Shown: piece after piece, positions 1,321-62,725 of the stretch
How positions within the stretch are numbered: the first letter of the stretch is position 1
How the letters are laid out: each line of letters begins with the position of its first letter
Assembly: GCA_028692395.1 (NCBI GenBank)
Contig: JAQUXP010000002.1
Location: 62,001 to 126,000 of the forward strand
Reading direction: 5' to 3'
Length of the DNA: 64,000 nt
Source of the DNA: Lachnospiraceae bacterium
GTDB lineage: Bacteria; Bacillota; Clostridia; Lachnospirales; Lachnospiraceae
Made by a program: the position numbers and the translations under genes
The notes under the pieces: model-generated
The model's input: only the letters and a program-made list of their open reading frames with translations
The model's database searches: none
What the model was told of the DNA's origin: nothing

Positions 1321-2272
1321 GCATCTGGATGTTACCAAATCAAGGCAGCTGATGAATCTGAAAGCCTTTGATCCTTTGAAGCCTCTGTACCTGACGAGAG
1401 ATGAAACTGCAGAAGTGGATGACCATATGATATCCTATCGCATCTATTTTCCACATGAAGATGCCAGCATGGCAGCGAAGATTGACAGAGGGACAGAACG
1501 CAGGCAGTCAGTCCTCTATCCTGTTATTTTTTATATTCATGGTGGTGGATTTTCTACGGAAAGTGTGGAAAGCTATAATAAGATCTGCTGGAATCTTTCC
1601 AGGAGAACCGGACATATTGTGGCTGCCATTGACTATCCCCTGGCACCGGAACATCGTTTTCCGGTGCAGATCCAGGAATGCTATTCCCTGGCAAAAGCAC
1701 TGTATCAGAATCAGACTGTGATACCGGTTGATCCGGAGAAGTTCATCATCATGGGTGACAGTGCCGGTGGAAACCTTACGGCGGCGGTCTGCCAGATGGC
1801 AAGAGACAAAAAGGAGTTTCTGCCCAAACGTCAGATCTTGATTTATCCCTGCGTGAATAATGATTACTCGGAAAACAGTCCCTTTCCCTCTGTGATGGAA
1901 AACGGACGAGACTATCTGCTCACAAGATTGAATATGGTTGATTATCTTGACTTCTATCAAGGCAAGGCAGAGGACCGGCAGAATCCGTATTTTGCCCCTC
2001 TCATGGCAGAGGACTACAGCGGACTTCCGGATGCCCTTGTGATCACCGGCGAATTCGACCCTCTGCGGGATGAGGGAGAAGAGTATGCAAGGCGGATGCG
2101 TGAGGCTGGCGTGTCAGTGGAACATCACAGAATTTCGGACGCCATCCATGGATTTTTCCTGCTTCCCACACATTATCCTTCTGTTCGGGAGACTTATGAA
2201 TACATAAATGAATTTCTAAGTGAGGTGGATAGCAGTGTTTCAAACGAGGAAAACCAATTGGAGAACGCTTGA
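1271..2272 (+). CDS. alpha/beta hydrolase (HSL/esterase-lipase type)
   Basis: HGGGF oxyanion motif, GDSAGG nucleophile elbow, C-terminal D...H (DAIHGF). Confidence 0.9.
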   Translation: MNQALHLLLKALSDPDEHLDVTKSRQLMNLKAFDPLKPLYLTRDETAEVDDHMISYRIYFPHEDASMAAKIDRGTERRQSVLYPVIFYIHGGGFSTESVESYNKICWNLSRRTGHIVAAIDYPLAPEHRFPVQIQECYSLAKALYQNQTVIPVDPEKFIIMGDSAGGNLTAAVCQMARDKKEFLPKRQILIYPCVNNDYSENSPFPSVMENGRDYLLTRLNMVDYLDFYQGKAEDRQNPYFAPLMAEDYSGLPDALVITGEFDPLRDEGEEYARRMREAGVSVEHHRISDAIHGFFLLPTHYPSVRETYEYINEFLSEVDSSVSNEENQLENA

Positions 2273-4076
2273 GAATACAGCCAAGATATTTCCGGCAACC
2301 AGTGGGAGAGAGGATGAACGGGTCTTTCGTTTTGCCTGTGAACTGATAGAAGAGATAGACTGCGAAGCTCTTCAGAAAGCACTTGACCAGACAGTGAAGG
2401 ATTATCCCATGTTTCTGTGTGTGCTGCGCAAAGGTCTTTTCTGGAACTATCTGGAGGAGTCTGCTCTTCACCCGGTAGTGGAGGAGGAACAGCGTCTGCC
2501 CTGCAGTGCTCTGTATGTGCGGGATCAGAAAAATCTGCTGTTTCAGGTATCCTATTACAAAAAGAGAATTAATTTTGAAACCTATCATGCCCTGACAGAC
2601 GGGACAGGTGCACTTCATTTTCTGCAGCGGCTGATCTATCATTATCTGCACCTGCTGCATCCGGATACAGTTGCGGCAGGTGCCATCCTGGAAAGCATCA
2701 GTTCTTCCCAGGATGATCAGATGGAGGATGGATTTGAAAAGTATTACGGAAGCGAAGAAAATGCAGACGATATTCCAAAGTACAAGTCCTATCAGTTTAA
2801 GTATCGTCATAAGCTGCAGCGAAGACTGAAGCTCTATGAGGGAATTATTCCCACCTCGCAGATTCTGAAAGCTGCAAGAGAAAGGCATACTACGGTTACC
2901 GTGCTTCTGACTGCCGTATACCTTTGTGCCATAGCAAAGGACATGAAGGTACGGCAGAAAAAGCGTCCTGTGGCACTGATGGTTCCGGTAAATCTCCGAA
3001 GTTATTTTCCTTCAGAATCCATGCGGAATTTTTTTGGATGGATTGATGTGGGGTATGATTTTGGAACTCAGCCCCAGGATCTGGAAAGTGTGATTGCCTA
3101 TGTTTCTGAGTTTTTCAAGAAGGAACTGCAGCAGTCACGTATTGCAGCCCGGATGAATAATCTGATCAAGTTTGAAAAGAATCCCATTGTCAGGATTCTT
3201 CCGTTAGAGCTGAAAACATTATTTATGAAACTGGGTGCCAGATTTTCCAGTGGCGATGACACGGCGGCCTTTTCCAATATCGGAAGAATCACCATGTCAG
3301 AGGCATGCGGTGCTTATATCGATTTTTTTGAGTTTTATACTACAACCCCTTCCATGGAACTTTGTATGTGTTCCTTTGAGGAAAAGATGACCTTGTCTTT
3401 TACCTCGGCTTATGAAACTTCCAAGGTGGAACGGAATTTTTTCTCGATTCTGGAAAACATGGGAATTGAGGTGGAAAAAGTAGCGGGAGCAGATGCTCCG
3501 GTCATGGAAGAGAGATTCCCGGATGTTACAAAACGAAATCAAACCCATGATTTCTGGTATCAGCTCTTTTCCTTCGCAAGCATTGCCCTGGTAGTATTAA
3601 GCGTTATGCTGAACTGGATCGTGACACCTGAAAACCTCTGGTCACATTATGTGGCTGGCGGGACGCTGACGGCATGGATCGTGACTACAGTAGGGTATCG
3701 AAAACGGAGAAATCTACTGAAGAATGCACTTTGGCAGCTGATTCTGATCAGCAGCGGTCTGATTCTGTGGGATTATGCTACCGGCTGGAGGGGCTGGTCA
3801 CTGGATATTGCCCTTCCCTCAGCGATTATTCTTACCCTTGCTGCCATGGGTATCATCGTGGCATGCTTTGGGATGGATTCTCCGGATTATATGATCTACA
3901 TTCTGATCTGTACTATGATGGGTTTTTTGCCATTATTGCTGAAGCTTTTCCATCTGATCCAGTTTCAGATTCCTACTATTATCTGTGCCGGAATCAGTTT
4001 GATTTCACTGGCAGCCGTACTGATCTTTCAGTGGTCAGCGGTGAAAAGTGAACTGACCAAGAAATTCCATATATAG
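2220..4076 (+). CDS. condensation/WS-DGAT/alcohol-acetyltransferase-like protein with C-terminal multi-TM domain
   Basis: HALTDG (HxxxDG) acyltransferase motif; about 170 aa hydrophobic C-terminus; start overlaps the upstream hydrolase, exact start uncertain. Confidence 0.75.
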   Translation: MRWIAVFQTRKTNWRTLENTAKIFPATSGREDERVFRFACELIEEIDCEALQKALDQTVKDYPMFLCVLRKGLFWNYLEESALHPVVEEEQRLPCSALYVRDQKNLLFQVSYYKKRINFETYHALTDGTGALHFLQRLIYHYLHLLHPDTVAAGAILESISSSQDDQMEDGFEKYYGSEENADDIPKYKSYQFKYRHKLQRRLKLYEGIIPTSQILKAARERHTTVTVLLTAVYLCAIAKDMKVRQKKRPVALMVPVNLRSYFPSESMRNFFGWIDVGYDFGTQPQDLESVIAYVSEFFKKELQQSRIAARMNNLIKFEKNPIVRILPLELKTLFMKLGARFSSGDDTAAFSNIGRITMSEACGAYIDFFEFYTTTPSMELCMCSFEEKMTLSFTSAYETSKVERNFFSILENMGIEVEKVAGADAPVMEERFPDVTKRNQTHDFWYQLFSFASIALVVLSVMLNWIVTPENLWSHYVAGGTLTAWIVTTVGYRKRRNLLKNALWQLILISSGLILWDYATGWRGWSLDIALPSAIILTLAAMGIIVACFGMDSPDYMIYILICTMMGFLPLLLKLFHLIQFQIPTIICAGISLISLAAVLIFQWSAVKSELTKKFHI

Positions 4077-4087
4077 TCAGAATTTAT

Positions 4088-4332
4088 GGAGCTGTCGCTC
4101 TTCGGTGGCCGCAAGTCCCCCTCTGAGGCCTGAACACGGTTTCGAAGTCCAAGAGTATAAAAAAAAACAACCGATTTTGCTAAAATCATAAGAAATCATC
4201 ATAAACTCGCTGCGCTCAGACAGTATGCTGATTTCTTATAACGCAAAATCGGTTGTTTTGGTATACTTAGGACTTCTGCAAATGTGTTCAGGCCTCATAG
4301 GCGACTTGCGGCCACCGAAGTGCGACAGCTCC
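4088..4332 (+). repeat. long imperfect hairpin element, copy A (about 245 nt, followed by T6)
   Basis: Arms ggagctgtcgc-cttcggtggccgcaagtc...tgaggcctgaacac are near-perfect reverse complements of 4280-4332; perfect 16-bp inner helix 4164-4179/4244-4259; apical helix 4188-4203/4224-4239; homologous to 15681-15919. Confidence 0.9.
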
Positions 4333-14239: not shown

Positions 14240-15652
14240 ATGGCAACAATAGAAAAAAAGCCGGTTGGAATTATGGAAACCGTACTTCGTGATGCACATC
14301 AGTCTCTGATTGCAACACGTATGACTACGGAGCAGATGCTTCCAATCGTAGATAAGATGGATAAAGTCGGATATCATGCAGTAGAGTGCTGGGGAGGTGC
14401 AACCTTCGATGCGTCCTTACGTTTCCTGCATGAGGATCCATGGGAAAGACTTCGCAAGCTGCGTGACGGATTCAAGAACACAAAGCTTCAGATGCTCTTC
14501 CGTGGACAGAACATTCTGGGATATCGTCCCTATGCAGATGATGTGGTAGAGTATTTCGTTCAGAAATCTGCTGCAAACGGAATTGATATTATCCGTATCT
14601 TTGACTGCATGAATGATTTGCGTAATCTGCAGACAGCAGTTAAGGCAGCAAACAAAGAAAAAGCGCATGCACAGGTAGCACTTTCCTACACACTGGGAGA
14701 TGCTTACACCCTTGATTACTGGACCTCTATGGCAAAGAAAATCGAGGATATGGGTGCAGATTCTATCTGTATCAAGGATATGGCAGGTCTGCTGCTTCCT
14801 TACAAAGCAACAGAGCTTGTTACGGCGCTGAAGGAGACTACAAAGCTTCCGATTCAGCTGCATACGCATTACACCTCAGGTGTAGCTTCCATGACTTATA
14901 TGAAGGCAATTGAGGCAGGCGTTGATGTTGTTGACTGTGCAATCTCCCCATTTGCTATGGGTACTTCACAGCCGGCTACCGAGGTTATGGTTGAAACCTT
15001 CAAGGGAACACCTTTTGATACAGGTTATGATCAGAATCTGTTGGCTGAGATCGCAGACTACTTCCGTCCGATGAGAGATGAAGCATTGGAAAGCGGTCTT
15101 CTGAATCCTAAGAACCTTGGTGTTAATATCAAGACACTTCTGTATCAGGTACCAGGCGGAATGCTTTCCAACCTGACAAGCCAGCTGAAGGATCAGCATG
15201 CAGAAGACAAGTATTATGATGTGTTGGAAGAGGTTCCCCGTGTTCGTAAGGACCTTGGTGAGTGCCCACTGGTAACTCCTTCTTCCCAGATCGTCGGAAC
15301 ACAGGCTGTATTCAACGTTATCATGGGTGAACGTTACAAGATGGTAACCAAAGAGACAAAAGATGTACTGAGTGGAAAATACGGTGCAACTGCAAAACCG
15401 TTCAATCCGGAAGTACAGAAAAAGTGCATTGGTGATATAGAACCCATCACCTGTCGTCCGGCTGACCTGATCGCTGATGAGCTGGATACACTGGAAGGTG
15501 AGATGGCGCAGTACAAAGAGCAGGATGAGGACATCTTGTCTTACGCACTGTTCCCACAGGTAGCTACAGACTTCTTCAAGTACAGAGATGCACAGAAGAC
15601 AAAAGTAGATGCCAAGGAAGCAGATAAAGAAAACGGAGCATATCCGGTTTAA
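14240..15652 (+). CDS. oxaloacetate decarboxylase alpha / pyruvate carboxylase subunit B-like carboxyltransferase (5S type, no fused biotin domain)
   Basis: ETVLRDAHQSLIATRM, FRGQNILGYRPYADDVV, IKDMAGLL, LHTHYTSG motifs. Confidence 0.92.
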   Translation: MATIEKKPVGIMETVLRDAHQSLIATRMTTEQMLPIVDKMDKVGYHAVECWGGATFDASLRFLHEDPWERLRKLRDGFKNTKLQMLFRGQNILGYRPYADDVVEYFVQKSAANGIDIIRIFDCMNDLRNLQTAVKAANKEKAHAQVALSYTLGDAYTLDYWTSMAKKIEDMGADSICIKDMAGLLLPYKATELVTALKETTKLPIQLHTHYTSGVASMTYMKAIEAGVDVVDCAISPFAMGTSQPATEVMVETFKGTPFDTGYDQNLLAEIADYFRPMRDEALESGLLNPKNLGVNIKTLLYQVPGGMLSNLTSQLKDQHAEDKYYDVLEEVPRVRKDLGECPLVTPSSQIVGTQAVFNVIMGERYKMVTKETKDVLSGKYGATAKPFNPEVQKKCIGDIEPITCRPADLIADELDTLEGEMAQYKEQDEDILSYALFPQVATDFFKYRDAQKTKVDAKEADKENGAYPV

Positions 15653-15680
15653 GTCCTAAAAAACGCCAGAATCAAAAAAA

Positions 15681-15919
15681 GCTGTCCCGCTTCGGTGGCT
15701 GGGAGCTCCTTAGGAGGGCTGAACACATTTGCAGAAGTCCTAAGCATAGGAAAAAGAATAGAATTTGCGTTGTAAGCATGCAGCACACTGTTTAAGTGAA
15801 ACGAGTTTGTGCTGCATACTTACGTTTTTAGCAAAATCTATTCTTTTTTTGTATGCTCTTGGACTTCGAAACCGTGTTCCGCCCTCCTAAGGAGCTTCCA
15901 GCCACCGAAGTGGGACAGC
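15681..15919 (-). repeat. long imperfect hairpin element, copy B (inverted orientation relative to copy A; T7 on minus strand)
   Basis: Arms gctgtccc(g/a)cttcggtggctgg(g/a)agctccttaggagggc reverse-complementary; apical helix 15772-15786/15809-15823; reverse complement aligns with 4088-4332. Confidence 0.9.
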
Positions 15920-15949
15920 CCCCCCTTGGTTGATTCTGAACAGTTATCG

Positions 15950-15978
15950 TTGCGTATCAAATTTCACCGTGCTATAAT
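15950..15978 (+). promoter_or_regulatory. promoter upstream of rpiR-type regulator
   Basis: TTGCGT, 17 bp, TATAAT. Confidence 0.6.
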
Positions 15979-16037
15979 GAGCGTTAGCGAGAAAGATGAA
16001 GATCTGCGAATAGTTACAAGAGAGGTTAGAATTCAAG

Positions 16038-16964
16038 ATGGAACAAACAGATAATTTACTGGCACGACTGAATCAGCAGTATGGCGAACTGAGTAAGGGG
16101 CAGAAGCGCCTTGCGGACTTTATTGCTGATCATTATGATAAGGCTGTTTTTATGACAGCTGCCAAGCTTGGCGGGGAAGTGGGTGTAAGTGAATCAACCA
16201 CAGTACGCTTTGCAACCCAGCTGGGATATGAGGGATTTCCCCAATTTCATCGTGCTCTTGAGGAATTGGTCCGCAACAGGCTGAATTCGATTCAGCGGAT
16301 GAAGGTTACCTATGGCAGAGTGCCCCAGGAAAAGATTCTGGACAATGTTTTGCAGTCCGATATTGACAAGATCAAGCTGACACTGGAACAGATTGACCAT
16401 GAAGCTTTTAATATGGCGGTACAGACGATACTGGACGCCAAGAACATCTATGTGGTAGGTATTCGAAGCTGCGCACCCCTGGCAGAATTCTTGGGCTTTT
16501 ATCTGAATCTGATTTTTGATAATGTGCGTCTGTTACGAACCAGCAGTTCCAGCGAGATCTTTGAGCAGATGATTCGGATTGATGAAAAGGATGTTATTAT
16601 TGGAATCAGTTTTCCAAGGTATTCTATGCGGACGTTAAAGGCGATGGAATTCGCCAATAACAGAAGTGCCAAGGTGATCACCATCACGGACAGTATTCAT
16701 TCACCCATGAATCTGTACTCCTCCTGTAATCTGATCGCACGCAGTGATATGGCATCCATCGTGGATTCTCTTGTGGCACCCCTTAGTGTGATTAATTCTC
16801 TGGTTGTGGCCCTCTGCATGAAAAAGCAGAAGCAGGTGATGAACACGCTGGAGACCATGGAAGAGATCTGGGATGAATATCAGGTCTACAGTAATGATGA
16901 AATTAATTATATCGATGATAAGATCAAACTACGATTCCCAAAGATGGAGGATGAGCATGTCTGA
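16038..16964 (+). CDS. MurR/RpiR-family transcriptional regulator (HTH + SIS)
   Basis: N-terminal HTH_6 (GEVGVSESTTVRFATQLGYEGFPQF) and SIS domain. Confidence 0.92.
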   Translation: MEQTDNLLARLNQQYGELSKGQKRLADFIADHYDKAVFMTAAKLGGEVGVSESTTVRFATQLGYEGFPQFHRALEELVRNRLNSIQRMKVTYGRVPQEKILDNVLQSDIDKIKLTLEQIDHEAFNMAVQTILDAKNIYVVGIRSCAPLAEFLGFYLNLIFDNVRLLRTSSSSEIFEQMIRIDEKDVIIGISFPRYSMRTLKAMEFANNRSAKVITITDSIHSPMNLYSSCNLIARSDMASIVDSLVAPLSVINSLVVALCMKKQKQVMNTLETMEEIWDEYQVYSNDEINYIDDKIKLRFPKMEDEHV

Positions 16965-39777: not shown

Positions 39778-39853
39778 TGTGCAAAGATTCTGGCTTTGGA
39801 GCATTCGGATGTGCTTTGACAGGTGTCTAATTAGATAAAAAAAGAAAGTAAAA

Positions 39854-39901
39854 AGAGATATAAAAAAGTCATCCTCGAAAGGATGACTTTTTTATATCTC
39901 T
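39854..39901. terminator. bidirectional terminator between small ORF and rpmB
   Basis: Perfect 21-bp inverted repeat agagatataaaaaagtcatcc-tcgaaa-ggatgacttttttatatctct with T runs on both strands. Confidence 0.9.
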
Positions 39902-40085
39902 ATGCTCTTTCTACTTTGCCTGATCTTAAGCAAGAAGTACAAACATACATTTTCTGAGGATTACCGTTAACCTTAACCTTTACAGATTTAACATTGGATT
40001 TCCACATTTTGTTTGATCTTCTATGTGAATGACTTACATTGTTTCCGAAATGAGCAGCTTTTTCACAAATAGCACATTTTGCCAT
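39900..40085 (-). CDS. rpmB: 50S ribosomal protein L28
   Basis: MAKCAICEKAAHFGNNVSHSHRRSNKMWKSNVKSVKVKVNG. Confidence 0.95.
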   Translation of the reverse strand: MAKCAICEKAAHFGNNVSHSHRRSNKMWKSNVKSVKVKVNGNPQKMYVCTSCLRSGKVERA

Positions 40086-62390: not shown

Positions 62391-62490
62391 AGTGAAAAAG
62401 GTTGCGTGCACAGGTTTTTTGTGATATGGTATTGAGGTCTAATAGAATAACGAATTAAGTGTCTGTCAGTAGAGAAAATATTCTATCCGG

Positions 62491-62657
62491 TAATTAAGGG
62501 GAATATCTCGATACTGACAGGAAAGAGGGAATCAGGTGAAAATCCTGAGCGATTCGGTCACTGTAAGAGGGGAATCTGATTTAGAATCCATTGCAGCGTA
62601 TGCTGTGAGAAGGTAAATCAAGGTAATGATCCCAAAGCCAGGAAACCTGCTTAATTT
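62491..62657 (+). ncRNA. cobalamin (B12) riboswitch aptamer
   Basis: gagggaatcaggtgaaaatcctgagc, cggtcactgtaa, B12 box aaagccaggaaacctgc; P1 taattaag/cttaatt. Confidence 0.92.
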
Positions 62658-62725
62658 GAGTAAAGATGAAGCTTCCGTAAAAAGCAACATCTGGGAATGA
62701 ACTTTCAGGAGAAAGTTTGTTTTTG

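Follow-up and report, generated by a model that had tools for sequence, protein, structure and literature searches.

Background

Several classes of short folded sequence are known from bacterial DNA. The bacterial MITEs, such as NEMIS/Correia, ERIC, RUP, SPRITE and BOX, are short, non-coding, multicopy and intergenic, have long inverted repeats and form hairpins as RNA. SPRITEs resemble terminators, and for pneumococcal elements the insertion of one into another has been reported (PMC10969869). REP and BIME sequences are palindromic, chromosomal and extragenic, and are mobilised in trans by RAYT transposases. REPs measure 20-40 bp and carry a GTAG/CGTC tag (PMC3733652).

Intrinsic (Rho-independent) terminators place a G+C stem and a T run right after stop codons. 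The attC sites of integrons have a variable stem sequence with a conserved structure and conserved unpaired bases, and are recognised as a folded single strand. A survey of 40 genomes described intergenic, structured stem-loop repeat families, which came from genome scans, with sequence similarity inside each genome as the defining criterion (PMC2267715). A text search of its main text gives no mention of Ralstonia or Bacteroides.

The element described here works like a MITE or fold-back element and also like a terminator; no parental transposon was found, and flanking duplications are weak. It is below the roughly 600 bp of MITEs (243 nt), non-coding, palindromic throughout, and present in about 80 copies. 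Presence and absence at orthologous sites are seen as well, between species only. Unlike the described MITEs, however, it is a rod of fixed length in which the stems diverge and the inner loops are near-invariant, its tip loop recurs across phyla, and no parental insertion sequence was found. Like REP sequences it is palindromic, chromosomal, extragenic and probably moved in trans, but it measures 243 nt, and the Y1 transposase family is missing from a congener with 17 copies.

Compared with an intrinsic terminator, the element has the stem, the T run and the position, but it is 243 nt long with conserved loops inside, and the copy under study, copy B, lies the wrong way round for its upstream gene. 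Its variable stems, conserved structure and conserved unpaired bases resemble attC, and a similar recognition of the folded strand may apply. In contrast to attC, copies are dispersed single sites, are longer and have a conserved tip loop, and they sit among ordinary host genes with no cassette array seen. Because ordinary repeat finders need sequence similarity, such an element is nearly invisible to them.

The locus

The window is the whole stretch of 64,000 nucleotides that was analysed. Copies A and B of the element lie in it, with these parts:

15674..15919, minus strand: copy B, a palindromic element made of a 239-nt hairpin and a 7-nt T run (from the fold, the alignment with copy A and a covariance model)
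15721..15879, minus strand: core of copy B, matching covariance model R1 over its full 157 positions with 178 bits (C25:77721-77879 in contig coordinates)
15787..15808, minus strand: tip (apical) loop AAACTCGTTTCACTTAAACAGT, the local version of AAACTCGCTKCGCTCAGACAGT, the loop that recurs across phyla
15681..15720, minus strand: outer arm, 3' side on the sense strand, ending GGGACAGC
15880..15919, minus strand: outer arm, 5' side on the sense strand, starting GCTGTCCCACTTCGG
15674..15680, minus strand: T run at the sense-strand 3' end (A7 on the plus strand)
15667..15675, strand unassigned: CAGAATCAA, which pairs with TTGATTCTG just outside copy B
15930..15938, strand unassigned: TTGATTCTG, the partner of CAGAATCAA
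4088..4338 (to 4339 in the match with copy B), plus strand: copy A, of the same family, with its core at 4132-4289

The segment 15681-15919 is a near-perfect palindrome of 239 nt, with arms at 15681-15755 and 15845-15919 plus inner stems. The whole folds at -169 kcal/mol on either strand, versus -76 +/- 5 for dinucleotide shuffles (z = -17 to -21). A preliminary description had placed a long hairpin here, with a reverse complement that aligns with copy A, an A7 at its edge and both flanking genes on the plus strand, and all of this is borne out. The alignment is ungapped at about 80% (I1, 135 nt, 79%; I2, 81 nt, 80%).

Since A7 is on the plus strand, the T run of copy B belongs to the minus strand. 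The plus strand leaves the hairpin through C7, not T. Upstream is a carboxyltransferase gene of the oxaloacetate/pyruvate carboxylase type (14240-15652, plus strand; PF02436 and HMGL-like), whose stop codon lies 22 nt ahead of the A run, and downstream is an rpiR-family regulator gene (16038-16964, plus strand). An intrinsic terminator of the upstream gene would need its T run on that gene's strand, and copy B has it on the opposite one; the earlier doubt about a simple terminator role was thus correct. Copy A and many other copies do fit. The flanking pair CAGAATCAA and TTGATTCTG could possibly be the halves of an older hairpin.

Copy A is co-directional with the open reading frame at 2220-4076, lies 12 nt past its stop codon and ends in T6. 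It is a regular family member; copy B is the exception, a minority insertion in reverse orientation. This means that the T-run side of copy B faces antisense transcription.

Copy B is probably a member of a non-autonomous, mobile, MITE-like fold-back family, palindromic over its whole length of a constant 243 bp or so, which would be read as a folded strand by a putative trans-acting enzyme and which gene ends would tolerate as a terminator-like unit. The evidence is the high copy number, the constant length, the diverged but complementary stems, the near-invariant unpaired motifs, the biased location behind stop codons, and the presence and absence between species.

The family in the genome

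The 3.1-Mb genome has about 80 dispersed copies of the element, on most contigs sampled, so the likeness between copies A and B is far beyond chance. A covariance model, R1, was built from 24 cores. Its search of the genome returned 83 sense-strand matches, of which about 72 come close to full length, in a list that is incomplete: a loop pattern added three copies with nested inserts and one half copy.

Most of the 50 measurable copies span 243 +/- 2 nt from end to end. Because this spacing holds despite differing arms, it is the length of the element that is kept, and not its sequence. There are two core subfamilies, with compensated changes at many paired positions (for example GAATAG/CTATTC versus CAACCG/CGGTTG) and constant unpaired residues. 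The outer arms come in several unrelated sequence types, each still complementary. The idea that these arms are independent target hairpins was rejected, since the 'type B' arm was found only around cores; the arms therefore travel with the core.

The genome also has internally deleted derivatives. Some ordinary terminators, short hairpins in form, have their stem, GGCTGTCGCA/TGCGACAGCC, in common with the outer arms of the element (L274, C1:19504; L275, C37:80931; L281, L282, L283 and L290). These may be deletion relics, or simply the usual terminator type of the species.

A second palindromic repeat family, E2, measures about 162 nt and has six full copies plus deletion derivatives. In three element copies with different outer arms, an E2 occupies precisely the tip loop:

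C19:19776-19937 (L276): E2 in the tip loop
C13:44301-44462 (L294): E2 in the tip loop
C61:70656-70817 (L295): E2 in the tip loop

Either the loop itself serves as a target for insertion, or composites spread.

Stem covariation and conserved loops

Covariation was computed on 39 cores, taken from the genome of the window, the congener G004 and named Lachnospiraceae and Clostridia loci. Standard pairs make up 92.5% of cells and double-sided changes occur in 49 of the 56 core pairs; because some of these sequences also served to derive the structure, the percentage of standard pairs is inflated, and more strongly than the counts of double changes. Against 0.198 for shuffled and at most 0.184 for slid controls, the covariation score reaches 0.745. 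Each of the 16 pairs of the apical helix has changes in both partners, and still 98.4% of cells there pair, with G.U in about 10 of 624. Invariant or nearly invariant columns are mostly in the internal and tip loops.

Mismatches in the stems could in principle tell the strands apart. G.T versus A.C counts are 52 versus 69 in the genome of the window, 27 versus 7 in G004 (loci L044, L048, L052 and L066-L072) and 18 versus 43 in loci of other phyla (within L073-L191). Strand assignment from mismatch type was dropped because this polarity is inconsistent between groups. The folded strand is under constraint; the claim extends neither to which strand this is nor to RNA versus DNA. The scarcity of G.U does favour DNA, and the G.T-rich mismatches of G004 would fit selection on a single sense strand, RNA included.

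Position and orientation at gene ends

The sense direction is defined by the T run at the 3' end, and gene contexts come from a simple hexamer gene caller. None of the 83 copies lies inside a predicted gene, and for 67 the 5' neighbour is co-directional. The preliminary description had called for a genome-wide search with orientations tabulated, and this is its outcome. From stop codon to core the median is 59 nt, so the palindrome begins roughly 10-20 nt past the stop. Contexts are same-strand tandem (35), convergent (32), inverted tandem (11, including copy B), divergent, or promoter-type (3), and no called left neighbour (2). Since most copies are co-directional and directly behind a stop codon, the terminator position is the rule for the family.

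T tracts follow 28 of 72 copies, and A tracts precede 23. Given these similar rates, transcription arriving from either side could be stopped at many copies.

The simplest mechanism, and a likely one, starts from the folded single strand, as a DNA hairpin or cruciform or, less likely, as RNA, which would be recognised by the putative trans-acting enzyme. This enzyme would read the conserved loops at fixed distances along the rod, and the sequence of the rod would not matter. The element may insert into gene 3' ends, or may survive only there. Its G+C outer stem and T run might then act as a terminator or insulator.

Strong covariation and conserved loop residues, a T run on one strand and a position behind genes are also what a structured non-coding RNA would offer, or a 3'-UTR RNA family, with loops that bind protein and many transcripts that carry the same module. 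The excess of G.T over A.C in G004 agrees with this too. It is an unlikely explanation however: G.U is almost absent where RNA helices usually tolerate it, G.T does not exceed A.C in the genome of the window, T and A tracts are similarly frequent on the two sides, 11 tandem copies are inverted, and the distribution is patchy. Rfam 15 had nothing above gathering score, only sub-threshold look-alikes of miRNA precursors, and related loci had no match. The preliminary description had allowed for an antisense-strand RNA next to an oriented mobile or repeat unit. As G.U is rare and G.T is not commoner than A.C in the genome of the window, the antisense RNA is unsupported there. The repeat or mobile unit is favoured by the copy number, the orientation bias and the empty sites described below.

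Related species and mobility

Three congeners (G002, G003 and G005) have the orthologous gene pair with a short ordinary hairpin terminator at the site of copy B, and lack the element. Such empty sites had been suggested as a check; the opposite pattern, with all relatives carrying a co-directional terminator copy here, was looked for and did not occur. One G004 copy is missing at the orthologous site in the genome of the window (G000). These comparisons are all between species, none within. In G004 (L193), the region orthologous to 15653-16037 has an unrelated hairpin-rich insert of about 300 nt at the site of copy B.

G004, one of five congeners, has 17 copies, and two other genera have 21 and 4. 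Two single-contig congeners, 98-99% complete, have 0. Of the 150 species in a phylum sample, 2 have the exact tip loop.

Direct repeats of 7 nt or longer flank 6 of 50 copies versus 1.9 expected, with 1 of 200 permutations as high. The clearest are 12, 8 and 7-10 nt long, at a few copies only. The target-site duplication signal is therefore modest.

No partner gene is shared near the elements at about 120 loci, where the largest cluster is ABC-type ATPases and the rest are ordinary host genes. Nor was any autonomous copy found whose loop carries a gene; an unmatched half-copy and the deleted copies hold no gene. A RAYT/IS200 link was considered and is unsupported, as the Y1 transposase is absent from G004 (90% complete, 17 copies). 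G000 has one, truncated at a contig end. That the searches made found neither a mobilising enzyme nor an autonomous copy counts against the mobile reading.

An ordinary MITE would have arisen by internal deletion from a known insertion sequence whose ends are GGGGCTGTCGCAC, and the transposase of that sequence would move it; the covariation would come from palindrome correction during replication. This would account for the inverted ends, the non-coding nature, the fixed size, the few flanking direct repeats and the internally deleted derivatives. Yet other genomic sites of the exact 10-mer GGCTGTCGCA, inspected with short flanks, are short hairpins (several of them terminators), further copies or unpaired matches, with no transposon end. 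What is conserved is the interior loops and not the ends, other genera have other ends, and palindrome correction would erase the conserved mismatches too. An ordinary MITE is thus distinctly unlikely.

Very improbable is a set of host-recruited terminators or insulators, multiplied by duplication or gene conversion and now immobile, which has the terminator position, the T runs and the presence of the GGCTGTCGCA stem in short ordinary terminators of the same genome on its side, but not the dispersed single copies at non-homologous sites, the patchy species distribution, the loops common to several phyla or the occasional flanking direct repeats.

If the element is indeed mobile, as favoured here, a structure-reading enzyme is implied behind it. 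It would also offer a direct test of whether palindrome arms co-evolve by selection or by copying during replication. For annotation, many genes in carrier genomes gain a long terminator-like 3' end.

The tip loop across phyla

At least 119 stretches from many phyla contain the exact 22-mer AAACTCGCTKCGCTCAGACAGT; in most it lies at the apex of a long palindrome, and the stems of these are unrelated. Phyla with the loop at such an apex include Bacillota, Pseudomonadota, Bacteroidota, Fusobacteriota and Nitrospirota. Copy B may, rather tentatively, belong to a previously undescribed class of mobile elements in many bacterial phyla. Such a class would be defined by its folded shape, a rod of fixed length with near-invariant loops, and read as a single-stranded hairpin by a putative widespread, chromosomally encoded enzyme, while the stems diverge freely by paired changes.

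The open-access papers searched have no match to the loop sequences in a relevant context, and their text on terminator insertion, on MITEs, on Lachnospiraceae and on repeats of Ralstonia has no description of the element.

With short queries of limited sensitivity, AAACTCGCTKCGCTCAGACAGT was not found in IMG/VR viral contigs or in 5,426 complete E. coli genomes, and 6 of 72,556 plasmid records match, all non-mobilizable and from 169 kb to 962 kb. The phage, E. coli and small-plasmid collections have no copies, apart from one weak unannotated phage match. It is unusual for a mobile element to be nearly missing from plasmids and phages, and this counts against the mobile reading. Copies appear to be restricted to chromosome-like replicons. 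The pILYOP01 replicon of Ilyobacter polytropus (NC_014633.1, L239), at 962 kb, has the tip loop at ten places.

Many loci outside Lachnospiraceae have an extra 5' hairpin, CTTTCTTTG-loop-CAAAGAAAG, with a loop of about 6 nt that is complementary to a segment just downstream. Among these are L076, L140, L151, L181, L239, L241 and Ralstonia, and loop and segment covary. The mean longest complementarity is 4.08 versus 3.46 when permuted (0 of 500 permutations as high), over loci that are not independent because many are Ralstonia. A pseudoknot between loop and segment is possible.

Other structures in the window

An inverted repeat at 39838-39917, with 38-nt arms and a 4-nt loop, is unrelated to the element and is probably a strong terminator. 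At 62479-62668, on the plus strand, there is a cobalamin riboswitch (RF00174, 79.9 bits).
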